Shown one piece after another: positions 4,361-10,982 of a stretch of 24,800 nucleotides of DNA. Location of the stretch: positions 1 through 24,800 of the IMG/VR virus record IMGVR_UViG_3300022752_004741, one strand, 5' to 3'. A program made the translations under genes and the position numbers. Each line of letters begins with the position of its first letter. Positions within the stretch are counted from its first letter, which is position 1. A model generated the notes under the pieces. That model made no database searches. It saw only the letters and a program-made list of their open reading frames with translations, and was not told the DNA's origin. The stretch comes from a virus.

Positions 4361-4993
4361 ATGTACTATACAATTTATAAGATAACAAATCAAATTAATG
4401 GCAAAATCTATATAGGATCACATAAGACCAAAAATTTGAATGACGATTACATGGGGTCGGGTAAGTATCTTAGATATTCCCAGAAAAAATATGGGATGCA
4501 TAATTTTTCTAAAGAAATTTTATTTATCTTCGATAATCCTGATGATATGTTTAAAAAAGAAAAAGAACTTGTTTCCGAAGATTTTTTATCCTCAGAAAAT
4601 ACATATAATTTAAAACAAGGTGGTTTCGGTGGGTTTGATCTAGTAAATAAAACAGGTAAAAATTTATATGGAAACAATGGAAAATTAGGATTTGGTGGTG
4701 AAAACCTTATTAAAGGTAGATTCAGAAAAATGACACAAGAAGAAAAAAATAAAATATCCAATACTATGAAAGAAGGGTATAAATCGGGTAAACTTTTGCC
4801 AACTTTCAAAGGCAAAACTCACTCAGATGCTACTAAAAAATTAATAGGAAGTAAAACCTCTGTGCATCAAGCAGGAAATAAAAACTCTCAGTATGGGACA
4901 ATGTGGATTACAAATGGATTACAAAATTTAAAAATACAAAAAACTGCCGAGATACCTGACGGATGGGTGAAAGGTAGAAAATTAAAAAAGTGA
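4361..4993 (+). CDS. GIY-YIG endonuclease, Seg-like homing enzyme (210 aa)
   Basis: Free-standing homing endonuclease expected to cut phage genomes lacking it and so spread itself and flanking DNA. The N-terminal domain carries the GIY-like TIY (4-6) and YIG (17-19, KIYIGSHKT) motifs, then a KEKELVSE segment typical of the catalytic-Glu helix. The middle and C-terminal parts (about 120-170) look like nuclease-associated DNA-binding repeats (FKGKTHSDATKKLIGSKTS). The last 40 residues (MWITNG...DGWVKGRK) resemble the tail module common in phage homing enzymes. A clear AGGAGA Shine-Dalgarno precedes the ATG. Its stop codon (4991-4993) lies inside tRNA-Cys, which starts at 4990. T4 SegB likewise sits in that phage's tRNA cluster. 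Lower GC than the surrounding tRNAs fits insertion as a mobile gene. Confidence 0.92.
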   Translation: MYYTIYKITNQINGKIYIGSHKTKNLNDDYMGSGKYLRYSQKKYGMHNFSKEILFIFDNPDDMFKKEKELVSEDFLSSENTYNLKQGGFGGFDLVNKTGKNLYGNNGKLGFGGENLIKGRFRKMTQEEKNKISNTMKEGYKSGKLLPTFKGKTHSDATKKLIGSKTSVHQAGNKNSQYGTMWITNGLQNLKIQKTAEIPDGWVKGRKLKK

Positions 4994-5064
4994 AGGTGGC
5001 AGAGTGGCCCAATGCAAGAGTCTGCAAAACTCTAAAACCGTGGGTTCGAATCCCACCCTTCACT
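4990..5064 (+). tRNA. tRNA-Cys(GCA)
   Basis: Acceptor GTGAAGG/CCTTCAC, anticodon stem AGAGT/ACTCT with loop CTGCAAA, T arm GTGGG-TTCGAAT-CCCAC, discriminator T. The next bases are CAA, so CCA is not encoded. The 5' end overlaps the endonuclease stop codon by four bases. Confidence 0.93.
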
Positions 5065-5072
5065 CAAGATAT

Positions 5073-5161
5073 GGGAGCTGTTCCCTACGGCGGACTGTAA
5101 ATCCGTTGCCATAATTTGTAGGGTGGTTGGCAGTTAGGTTCAATTCCTTCAGTTCCCACCA
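5073..5161 (+). tRNA. tRNA-Tyr(GTA) lacking a normal D hairpin
   Basis: Acceptor GGGAGCT/AGTTCCC, anticodon stem GCGGA/TCCGT with loop CTGTAAA, T-loop TTCAATT, encoded CCA. Only about 10 nt (5080-5089) separate acceptor and anticodon stems, too few for a D arm. Instead CCCTAC (5083-5088) can pair with GTAGGG (5118-5123) in the long variable arm, whose own stem is TGCCA/TGGCA (5107-5111, 5128-5132), giving a possible pseudoknot. The T stem has only three good pairs. Confidence 0.75.
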
Positions 5162-5351
5162 GTATCCCCGGCCCTACGCCGGTCATCAAGTAGGCGGTTA
5201 GACTTCCGTGAGTAGTCTAGGTTAGCTATACGACCTCCCTCCGGGCCCTACATCCGGAAGGGTAAAAGACTGTGGCGGGGTTTGACCAGCCCGAAGATGG
5301 TACGGACAGGGTAACAACTCAAGTTGGGGCAGGTGGGAATCTGTAGCCGAC
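5162..5351 (+). ncRNA. GC-rich structured non-coding region after tRNA-Tyr
   Basis: No credible ORF. Many local helices exist: CCGGC/GCCGG, AGACT/AGTCT around 5202-5220, and CCCTCCGG with CCGGAAGGG near 5235-5262. CCCTAC followed by CGG within five bases occurs twice here and once in tRNA-Tyr, and the first copy can form CCTAC/GTAGG. Base composition is close to that of the tRNAs and far from the AT-rich genes. It ends at the ACCA that starts long-stem element 2. No known RNA family, group I or group II intron core recognised. Confidence 0.5.
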
Positions 5352-5431
5352 ACCATATTGAAGTACATTCTTTAAGGTCTTGGTCGTTACCAGCGTAGCA
5401 AAAACGGCGACAGAGTGTGCTTCAATATGGT
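5352..5431 (+). ncRNA. Long-stem RNA element 2
   Basis: Arms 5352-5370 (ACCATATTGAAGTACATTC) and 5413-5431 pair over 19 positions with two G-U wobbles. The 42-nt interior has a T-arm-like hairpin TTGG-TCGTTA-CCAG whose loop shares TCGTTA with the T-loops of tRNA-Asp and tRNA-Asn. Confidence 0.75.
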
Positions 5432-5494
5432 AAAGTAAAGGTCGAAGTGGACCCGATCATTTTTAAAGGTCACTGACACATCGGAAAGACGGTG
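5432..5494 (+). ncRNA. Hairpin-bearing spacer between elements 2 and 3
   Basis: Contains GGTC-GAAGTG-GACC and a GGTCAC/GTGACT stem that ends against the 5' arm of element 3. No ORF. Confidence 0.4.
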
Positions 5495-5565
5495 ACTATA
5501 TTCTAGCACATTAGTTGTCCCACAGAGGCCCAAGCTAATATCTGAGTAGTGTGCTAGAATATGGT
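5495..5565 (+). ncRNA. Long-stem RNA element 3
   Basis: Arms ACTATATTCTAGCACATT (5495-5512) and AGTGTGCTAGAATATGGT (5548-5565) form 18 pairs including two G-U. The interior is 35 nt. The central CTAG/CTAG replaces the GAAG/CTTC of elements 1 and 2, a compensatory change. Confidence 0.75.
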
Positions 5566-5673
5566 CAAACAGACTTAGTGAGGTGGCAGACTAAAGACCA
5601 ACTTCAACCGCGTAGATAGTCCGGACTATCGTTTGAAACGGAAGATGCGTCCATCCCCTGCCCTGTTTGACCA
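5566..5673 (+). ncRNA. tRNA-like segment with 7-bp acceptor and ACCA end
   Basis: CAAACAG (5566-5572) pairs with CTGTTTG (5663-5669), followed by ACCA (5670-5673): a perfect 7-bp acceptor-like stem with discriminator and CCA. A second helix GGCAG/CTGCC (5585-5589, 5658-5662) stacks directly under the 3' strand. A perfect palindromic hairpin GATAGT-CCGG-ACTATC lies inside. No canonical T-arm or anticodon arm could be fitted, so it is not called a tRNA. Confidence 0.45.
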
Positions 5674-5767
5674 TATTGAAACACATTACATGCCGGGTAG
5701 TTGGCGGTGGTAGCCCAACGAAGGATGCTTCTCCTACCAAGAAGTTTATAGTGTGTTTCAATATGGT
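5670..5767 (+). ncRNA. Long-stem RNA element 4
   Basis: Arms ACCATATTGAAACACATTA (5670-5688) and TAGTGTGTTTCAATATGGT (5749-5767) form 19 pairs with one G-U. The interior (60 nt) has GTTGG/CCAAC, GGTAG/CTACC and GAAG-GATG-CTTC alternatives. Its first four bases are the ACCA of the preceding tRNA-like segment. Confidence 0.75.
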
Positions 5768-5912
5768 GAGTAAGTGGGGACCGAAAAGTCCTCGGGCTGA
5801 TCCCAGAACACGGAGACCTGAAGCGTGTATAAAGGTGGCGAGCCTTAAACGATGACACAGGCGTGATTCGAGCGACAACTACGATAAGGTTGTGCTGGAG
5901 TCGTAACCAGCA
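5768..5912 (+). ncRNA. Structured spacer between elements 4 and 5
   Basis: No ORF of note. Hairpins include GGGGAC-CGAAAA-GTCCTC, ACAAC/GTTGT, and TGCTGG-AGTCGTAA-CCAGCA ending one base before the 5' arm of element 5. Confidence 0.45.
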
Positions 5913-6011
5913 ACTATATTCTAGCACATTTGCTCCCAATAGCAAGCGGGTCGGTTTGTAGTCCTAATGCTGGACGAAGGGTTCGAATCCCAGAGTGTGC
6001 TAGAATATGGT
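5913..6011 (+). ncRNA. Long-stem RNA element 5
   Basis: Arms 5913-5930 and 5994-6011 repeat the arms of element 3 exactly (18 pairs, two G-U). The interior has TGCT/AGCA, a GTCC-TAATGCT-GGAC hairpin with a 7-nt loop, and a perfect T-arm-like GGG-TTCGAAT-CCC. The 3' arm ends six bases before the start codon of the next gene. Confidence 0.75.
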
Positions 6012-6017
6012 AATTAG

Positions 6018-6659
6018 ATGAAAAAACAACGTATAGCTATATTTCATAATCATCCGGAGTGTAGTTTACAATGTGCCCATGGTATAATCAGAGCACTTGG
6101 GTTAACCTACGATATTGATTGCTTTAACAAAGACGAAATAACAGATTCTTACTTCAAAAAATATCAATTAATAGCTTTTCCTGGTGGTATAGGTGATAGC
6201 AATCGTTATATAAAATTGCTTAAAGATAAAGAAGATATTATACGGAATCATATATCTAAAGGTAAAAGATATCTTGGCATTTGTATGGGAGCATATTGGG
6301 CAGGCCCTCATTATTTTAATTTACTTAATGATGTAAATCCTGTACAATATATAAAAAGACCTAATGCTGAGACAAATAGAAGTTATGGAACAGTTGTTAA
6401 TGTAAATTGGTTAGGGCATGATGAATCAATGTTCTTTTACGATGGATGCAGCTTATTAAGTAATACTAATAATTTTGAAACTATTGCTACTTATAGTAAT
6501 GGTGATGCTGCAGCAATTATACAAAATAACATTGGAGTAATCGGTCCTCATCCTGAAAGTGATATCTATTGGTACAAGAAAAAGTATCTACATCCTTATT
6601 GGCATGAATATAGACATCATCTTTTATTGTTAAAGTTTGTAAAAAGATTATTAAGATAA
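6018..6659 (+). CDS. Class I glutamine amidotransferase-like protein, BPL_N type (213 aa)
   Basis: Resembles the GATase1-fold domain at the N-terminus of eukaryotic-type biotin protein ligases and free-standing relatives. Visible features: an N-terminal strand RIAIFHNHP, LIAFPGGIGDS around 51-61, the nucleophile-elbow-like YLGICMGAYWAG (Cys near 89), and a C-terminal PHPES that supplies His and Glu in GATase triads. The substrate is unknown; BPL_N members are often of uncertain activity. No strong Shine-Dalgarno precedes the ATG, and long-stem element 5 ends at 6011, so that RNA structure would lie in its 5' leader. tRNA-Pro begins one base after the stop. AT-rich coding bias matches the following metabolic genes rather than the tRNA region. 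Confidence 0.72.
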   Translation: MKKQRIAIFHNHPECSLQCAHGIIRALGLTYDIDCFNKDEITDSYFKKYQLIAFPGGIGDSNRYIKLLKDKEDIIRNHISKGKRYLGICMGAYWAGPHYFNLLNDVNPVQYIKRPNAETNRSYGTVVNVNWLGHDESMFFYDGCSLLSNTNNFETIATYSNGDAAAIIQNNIGVIGPHPESDIYWYKKKYLHPYWHEYRHHLLLLKFVKRLLR

Positions 6660-9954: not shown

Positions 9955-10092
9955 ATGTTTAATCTTTACAATCCTTTTTATTGGTATAATTTAGTAGCTG
10001 AATCTAAAGTTTCAGACCAAGAAACAGATCTTAGTGATAATATTGAAGAAGATCCCCAAGATTTTGATATAGAAGAATTAAATTACGAATGA
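9955..10092 (+). CDS. Small acidic protein (45 aa)
   Basis: Starts MFNLYNPFYWYNLVAES behind AGGAGAAA and ends in a very acidic tail (DNIEEDPQDFDIEELNYE). It has an aromatic N-terminus and no recognised motif. It overlaps rimK by ATGA (10089-10092), suggesting translational coupling. Confidence 0.65.
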   Translation: MFNLYNPFYWYNLVAESKVSDQETDLSDNIEEDPQDFDIEELNYE

Positions 10093-10982
10093 AAACTGTT
10101 TGGATATTTCATTATGATGCTTTAACGGTTGAAAAAGACACAGAGACTTGTGCTTTAGTGACTCAATTTAAAAAAAATAATATTGATTGTAAAGTTTATC
10201 AACCAAAAAATTTCGATATAATTACCAGTAGAAAAAGCCATAAAAGTATAAGATATCAAGGCAACAAAATTGATTTACCTAATGCTGTGCTTGTACGGAC
10301 TGGCGCAGGCACTAATTATTTTACACTAGCTTTGCTAAGACAATTAGAAAATTTTGACATACCTATTGTTAATAATAGTCAAAGTATATTGCATAGTAGA
10401 GATAAAATGATTAGCAGCCAAATTTTGGCAAAAGCAAAATTGCCTACACCGAGAACTATGTTAGTGAGCCATCCGATTAATGTTGATATAGTCGAACAAG
10501 AGATCGGTTTTCCATGTGTTGTAAAAATGGTTACAGGTAGCCAAGGTAAAGGAGTTTATCTTTGTAAAGATAAAGATATGTTTATTAACTTTATGGACCT
10601 TACCGACAATCTTAAAAGCAGAAAAACGTTAATTATACAAGAATTTATTAATAGTGGAGAATTATTTGATCTCAGAGTTTGGGTTATTGGGGGCAAAACT
10701 GAAGTAGCCATGAAAAGAATACCTCCGAAGGGCGATTTTAAAGCTAATATTACTAGGGGTGGAATTGGTGAACCATTTCAATTAAATGATGAAATTAGTG
10801 AATTAGCTAGTAAGACTGCCAGAGCATTTGATCTTGAAATAACAGGTGTAGATCTACTGTTTAATGGTGAAAAATATCTAGTTTGTGAAGCTAACAGTAG
10901 TCCAGGTTTTGAAGGCATAGATAAATACTGTTGCACTGATATGGCTGACCAAATAGTCAGATACGTAAGGAAACAAATATGA
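10089..10982 (+). CDS. rimK: RimK-family ATP-grasp ligase (297 aa)
   Basis: ATP-grasp enzyme of the RimK type, which adds glutamate to a carboxyl end; E. coli RimK modifies ribosomal protein S6. The sequence shows the N-terminal pre-ATP-grasp domain (VLVRTGAGTNYF around 67-78), NSQSILHSRDKM (96-107), the nucleotide-binding strand FPCVVKMVTGSQGKGV (141-156, Lys146 and a Gly-rich loop), DLRVWVIGGK (194-203), an ITRGG segment (221-225) and the metal-binding end GVDLLF...CEANSSPGFEGI (about 253-277). Length is that of E. coli RimK (300). It is coupled by 4-base overlaps to the genes on both sides. Possible roles are modification of the host translation apparatus or of a phage protein or peptide; neither is shown by the sequence. 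Confidence 0.9.
   Translation: MKTVWIFHYDALTVEKDTETCALVTQFKKNNIDCKVYQPKNFDIITSRKSHKSIRYQGNKIDLPNAVLVRTGAGTNYFTLALLRQLENFDIPIVNNSQSILHSRDKMISSQILAKAKLPTPRTMLVSHPINVDIVEQEIGFPCVVKMVTGSQGKGVYLCKDKDMFINFMDLTDNLKSRKTLIIQEFINSGELFDLRVWVIGGKTEVAMKRIPPKGDFKANITRGGIGEPFQLNDEISELASKTARAFDLEITGVDLLFNGEKYLVCEANSSPGFEGIDKYCCTDMADQIVRYVRKQI

Follow-up and report, generated by a model that had tools for sequence, protein, structure and literature searches.

Viral tRNA arrays contain a family of hairpin elements, in which a constant stem of ~18 bp closes a diverse loop, and the elements begin directly on the 3' ends of tRNAs and other array RNAs. We found at least 457 elements in at least 180 fetched IMG/VR loci, including five in the window, which is the whole 24,800-nt stretch of DNA that was analysed. 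We read the element as a removable spacer hairpin that is related to the intervening segment of permuted (two-piece) tmRNA, occurs at many RNA 3' ends and carries exchangeable loops, termed payloads here; we regard this reading as evenly poised. The family seems to be undescribed so far. No paper describing it was found in a literature search, and the 11 matches to the element pattern in bacterial genomes included, among the five matches listed, no element hairpin. The array of the window had no match in isolated phages; two other arrays did match isolated phages, over 3-6% of the query, and among the matches listed the named features were tRNAs.

The hairpin family and its junction with RNA 3' ends

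The window comes from a virus record of IMG/VR and contains a tRNA array. ARAGORN called 18 tRNAs in it and missed a probable tRNA-Tyr at about 5071-5161. An Rfam scan of the window returned tRNAs and no other family; matches in 5060-6030 at E up to 5 were all weak and under the family gathering scores, and the covariance model of GOLLD RNA (RF02032) had no match in the window. The five elements, E1 to E5, have stems of 18-20 bp, each closing a different loop, and they separate different RNAs rather than the two ends of one tmRNA.

2725-2799, + strand: tRNA-Ile(GAT), called by ARAGORN and Rfam; E1 begins on its four 3'-terminal bases, ACCA (2796-2799)
2796-2899, + strand: element E1, with an 18-bp stem and its payload at 2814-2881
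2905-2979, + strand: tRNA-Ala(TGC), called by ARAGORN and Rfam; the next RNA after E1, behind a 5-nt spacer
5166-5355, + strand: alpha RNA, unannotated and structured, ending in GTAGCCGAC-ACCA; 5' limit uncertain
5352-5431, + strand: element E2, starting with ACCA
5432-5498, + strand: beta RNA, ending in GGAAAGACGGTG-ACTA
5495-5565, + strand: element E3, with a CTAG-type stem, starting with ACTA
5566-5673, + strand: gamma RNA, with a 7-bp acceptor-like stem (5566-5572/5663-5669) and then ACCA
5670-5767, + strand: element E4, whose ACCA comes after CTGTTTG (5663-5669)
5768-5916, + strand: delta RNA, ending in TAACCAGCA-ACTA
5913-6011, + strand: element E5, with a CTAG-type stem, starting with ACTA

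The first-pass annotation had noticed that E1 shares its first four bases with the CCA end of tRNA-Ile, that E2 begins with ACCA after structured RNA, and that the ACCA of E4 follows a perfect CAAACAG/CTGTTTG stem. All three observations hold at these coordinates, and the start on an RNA 3' end proved to be a family-wide rule. Three reading frames were noted in the window as well: a GIY-YIG frame within the tRNA array (4361-4993; SegE-like, below the Pfam cut-off), possibly a homing endonuclease; a BPL_N/glutamine-amidotransferase-like protein directly after E5 (6018-6659); and a RimK-like ATP-grasp protein (10089-10982).

The family count is a lower bound that covers contigs fetched by pattern scans of viral contigs. 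The detector reads stem positions 5-18 only and leaves the first four bases unconstrained, so that element counts, all from metagenomic contigs, are conditional on the stem core. It gave 10 raw matches on reversed sequence against 501 on real sequence. The records are not independent, as the 457 elements comprise 384 unique sequences. Of 23 large element-bearing contigs, 9 had Gp23-type capsid genes that scored above the cut-off, suggesting that T4-like phages make up many of the carriers but not all of them.

Elements are 53-171 nt long. The unit reads UAUU...AAUAUGGU and lies directly 3' of the RCCA end of a tRNA or other array RNA. The conserved stem core reads 5' ARYRYAYU and favours a U.G pair; pair 17 is U.G in 296 of the 384 unique copies. 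Pairs 7-10 and 12-15 covary, with both-sided changes at pairs 8-10 and mostly transitions at pairs 12-15. Pair 11 is always A-U, which is partly a detector effect because that A is required, although it was also A-U in 327 of 327 copies found with an earlier detector that did not require it. Copies with the U.G wobble lie in the tRNA orientation at a ratio of 250:1, and the sole exception is an inverted copy in locus L184. The conserved wobble and the fixed orientation therefore point to a function as RNA. The stem is A+T-rich and the base after it is mostly A, in place of the GC-rich stem and U run of an intrinsic terminator.

Of the 166 elements that have the end of an ARAGORN tRNA in the 60 nt upstream, 149 start exactly on its discriminator base (offset -3), while any other distance within 60 nt accounts for about 17. 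At the 149 junctions, bases 1-4 of the element are N73-C-C-A of the tRNA, and therefore the CCA pairs with the element's own UGG. The earlier proposal that the CCA end is buried in the long stem agrees with the ViennaRNA prediction, in which the CCA-UGG pairing probability has a median of 0.999 over these junctions. The same boundary is seen at empty sites (L059 compared with L008 and L035, and L037 with L092), where the inserted unit begins right after RCCA and brings TGGT. Over the whole family, bases 2-4 are CCA in 348 of 457 elements and fit neither CCA nor YYA in 52. The first base tracks the discriminator, which is A or G and at times U or C, and the last base is mostly U, which makes G.U commoner than G-C at the base of the stem. 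The 3' GGT of 39 elements doubles as the opening three bases of the tRNA that follows, so that RNase P would cut inside the stem. The tRNAs that most often carry elements are tRNA-Glu (39 of 128) and tRNA-Lys (37 of 104), and several isotypes almost never do. Elements had at first seemed to be wholly absent from tRNA-Gly, tRNA-Cys and tRNA-His. This impression was rejected, as it came from demanding a purine at position 1; the set free of that bias contains two elements after tRNA-Gly, one after tRNA-Cys and none after tRNA-His.

The first-pass annotation had held that elements lying away from tRNA ends in relatives would speak against such a tie. This is partly what was found, as ARAGORN called no tRNA in the 60 nt before 291 of the 457 elements. 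Most of the elements that lack a near tRNA still begin with RCCA or RYYA, and of 304 non-ARAGORN cases, 205 have a terminal hairpin directly before the element, compared with 104 expected from shuffles.

RNAs other than tRNA ahead of the elements

The alpha, beta, gamma and delta RNAs, which stand ahead of E2, E3, E4 and E5, respectively, are conserved. Homologous 3' ends of alpha RNA occur in L005, L033, L099, L148, L189 and L191; those of beta RNA read GGAAAGACCGTC-ACCA in L131, L142 and L147; and delta homologues end in TAACCGGCA-ACCA in L013, L019, L041 and L186. Across the four RNAs, homologues end in RCCA or its wobble variants (ACTA, ATCA), and an element comes next, so the ACTA elements do not form a separate class. 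This overturns the earlier view that the two ACTA-type elements, E3 and E5, follow no RNA 3' end, since the RNAs upstream of them end in ACCA before an element in relatives. The proposed split between ACCA and ACTA types also fails on the payload of E3, which sits on the CCA end of tRNA-Glu in L116. Elements follow large RNAs too: in L145, a GOLLD RNA with a tRNA inside (2411-2870) is directly followed by an element of the family.

The acceptor-like stem of gamma RNA covaries in relatives (CAAACAGG/CCTGTTTG, AGTAGG/CCTACT, ATGTAGG/CCTACAT). Homologues have a stem of 6-8 bp, followed by RCCA in most and by ATCA in five, and these five run into another RNA. Such a stem before RCCA had led to the suggestion that 5566-5673 is a highly aberrant tRNA, namely the missing tRNA-Phe or tRNA-Met. 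We consider this very improbable: the segment has an acceptor stem and NCCA but no cloverleaf with an anticodon arm, it gave no ARAGORN tRNA and no Rfam tRNA match at E up to 5, L019 has a gamma homologue alongside its own tRNA-Phe and tRNA-Met genes, and an ATCA end running into another RNA, as in the five relatives, does not fit a tRNA. A different CCA-ended RNA, unannotated and with a covarying acceptor-like stem, was found in the isolated Limnohabitans phage DC31 (PQ492658; L216, about 6024-6130) and in L156 (about 9970-10090). It has two T-arm-like hairpins, making it a double-T-arm tRNA-like RNA.

Stems of neighbouring elements are more alike than those of distant ones. The idea that neighbours avoid cross-pairing was thus rejected, as the opposite holds, and an alternative fold may enclose the RNA between two elements; neighbouring elements could pair across the intervening RNA (inverted repeat I2). 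In the window, the E3 3' arm plus CAAACAG (5546-5572) can pair with CTGTTTG plus the E4 5' arm (5663-5689), giving an alternative long stem around gamma RNA.

Payload exchange and the link to permuted tmRNA

Payloads form at least 237 clusters among the 457 copies, of which 152 are single. Several clusters show compensatory changes in the loop, with nine covarying pairs in the cluster from L022, L029, L213 and L215. A T-loop motif is present in 22 of 268 unique payloads, compared with 0.4 in shuffles, and the payload of E5 contains a T-arm-like GGG-TTCGAAT-CCC at 5979-5991. The same payload can occupy different sites. The E1 payload follows tRNA-Ile in L013, L019, L023 and L104 and alpha RNA in L206, L211 and L212, and the tRNA-Ile site of L215 has another payload. 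The E2 payload is also found after phage tRNA-Gly, tRNA-Asn, tRNA-Lys and tRNA-Leu (L085, L179, L143), and that of E4 recurs after gamma RNA in L018 and L205 and also in L178. Exchange is seen between nearly identical genomes as well. L131 and L213 align over ~10.6 kb with an overall identity of about 99.8%, in one stretch of 530 nt (100%) and another of 10,079 nt (99.78%). The interval between these stretches, 37 nt compared with 84 nt, holds the payload of the element, in which the two differ. Similarly precise swaps occurred between L107 and L181 and between L037 and L091. Because the breakpoints lie at the stem, the swaps may result from short recombination between the arms.

Permuted tmRNA scored above the family cut-off in 18 of 32 element-bearing contigs. 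Its transcripts are cut by tRNA processing enzymes (PMC11915505). The linkers read ACCA-GAAACACATT...AGTGTGTTTC-TGAT-GGG, and in the 14 examined, 13 from element-bearing contigs and one from Xanthomonas phage X1, the segment that separates the CCA from the 5' GGG usually forms a hairpin. Seven of the 14 match the 8-nt element core ARYRYAYU at the same place, where chance would give about 1 in 2,000 per linker, and several others diverge. The linker payload in L217 is 93% identical to an element after tRNA-Ser in L014 (E 8.5e-20), and that in L227 is related to an element following tmRNA in L188. The tmRNA of phage X1 (OQ427096; L270, about 601-900) is unannotated in its record and has an element-like linker.

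The intervening segment of tmRNA (Rfam RF04321, RF01849-RF01851) thus resembles the elements in lying directly after RCCA with CCA opposite UGG, in its core ACATT...AGTGT, and, in one case, in a payload common to both; it belongs to a precursor that tRNA-processing enzymes cut. It differs in joining two halves of one RNA and in having an unpaired UGA in place of the UAUU/AAUA pairs. In bacteria it is known as an idiosyncratic spacer, not as a repeated, swappable tRNA cassette, and the linker of only 4 nt (CTAT) in the bacterial permuted tmRNA of L229 indicates that permuted tmRNAs do not all have the hairpin.

Possible roles of the elements

These likenesses underlie our reading of the element as a removable spacer. 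The CCA of the neighbouring RNA and the UGGU supplied by the element form the predicted base of the ~18-bp stem, and the element would be removed during RNA processing, by analogy with the tmRNA intervening segment. Host RNase P would cut at the 5' end of the RNA that follows, and a host nuclease plus trimming would act on the CCA side, separating the neighbouring RNAs, leaving CCA ends and freeing the hairpin with its payload. Such a stem would allow varied RNAs to stand in series and to be swapped with their ends unharmed. We assign processing to the host because, in the 23 large element-bearing contigs, which may be incomplete, RNase III, Y1 transposase (PF01797) and reverse transcriptase were each found in 0 of 23, and RNA ligase was rare (PF09414 in 4 of 23, PF09511 in 1 of 23).

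A different emphasis is that the payload RNAs themselves are selected in an arms race, whether they act as decoys, as regulators or in counter-defence, and that an RNA 3' end with its stem only gives them a safe place to land and be processed, which makes them swappable. The number of payload clusters, the covariation within payloads, the swaps between near-identical genomes and the excess of T-loop motifs over shuffles all fit this. However, no payload function or target was found, and the CCA junction is conserved whatever the payload, which suggests that the stem itself matters. We hold selection on payloads to be a real possibility, though not the expected one, and it is compatible with the removable spacer rather than exclusive of it. 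The first-pass annotation instead proposed that element folding competes with tRNA 3' maturation and times it. The predicted pairing of CCA at essentially all tRNA-element junctions, together with the 5' GGU of the downstream tRNA lying in the stem in 39 copies, would suit such a gate, but some elements come after GOLLD or other RNAs that are not tRNAs, in which case maturation of a tRNA does not come into play, and no regulatory input was identified; we find a gate quite unlikely.

It is also unlikely that the elements are DNA-level mobile hairpins inserting after RCCA, either resembling a product of a single-strand transposon or marking the landing site of a phage recombinase. Clean empty sites, insertion directly 3' of RCCA, one payload at many sites and the inverted copy would be expected of such hairpins, but the conserved U.G wobbles and the strong orientation bias argue for RNA, and the enzyme counts above give them no cognate Y1 transposase or reverse transcriptase and few RNA ligases. 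Phage-encoded circularisation, transposition and retro-mobility were rejected on the same counts. Integron attC sites and IS200/REP hairpins do share palindromic arms, a variable centre and modular arrays with the elements, but the elements differ in their RNA wobbles and fixed orientation, and an integron cassette lies between sites, whereas the variable part of an element lies inside the hairpin. That the elements serve as linkers in circularly permuted tRNA genes is hardly credible outside tmRNA, whose linker in these phages does have the element core: among elements without an ARAGORN tRNA directly upstream, pairing of downstream bases with the upstream acceptor strand was found once, compared with 1.9 in shuffles. 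Introns of tRNA were rejected too, as excision restores no tRNA and no ARAGORN tRNA spans the element in 117 cases. Among known structured RNAs, GOLLD and ROOL likewise occur in phage tRNA arrays and have unknown function, but they are large single RNAs, whereas the elements combine a constant stem with diverse loops. Intervening sequences of rRNA and RNase III processing hairpins are similar in being long precursor stems and plausible excised spacers, but they do not sit on CCA ends.

Beyond the spacer role, we tentatively propose, with somewhat less conviction, that phages of this type possess a system of modular RNA cassettes: a standard hairpin clamp, to which the neighbour's CCA contributes, would hold an exchangeable library of hundreds of payload RNAs that spreads between phages and between tRNA-array sites, co-opting the processing route of two-piece tmRNA. 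The family shows that long stretches of phage tRNA arrays that look empty are densely filled with modular structured RNAs, ties these to a processed precursor, the two-piece tmRNA, and makes hundreds of natural payload RNAs available for testing. It also raises the question of which nuclease releases the CCA end from so long a stem, both in tRNAs and in the precursors of tmRNA.

Other long-stem hairpin classes also start on tRNA CCA ends (L015 5852-6005, L043 2843-2994, L143 3047-3174, L100 725-851), with the stem ACCATTTGTTTAGTGTTATC or with stems closing on TGTA...TGCA. Several further long stems are ordinary phage tRNAs whose acceptor stems are lengthened by their flanks to about 20 bp (L099 10142-10242, L176 13075-13175, L116 2005-2102, L100 3460-3555).
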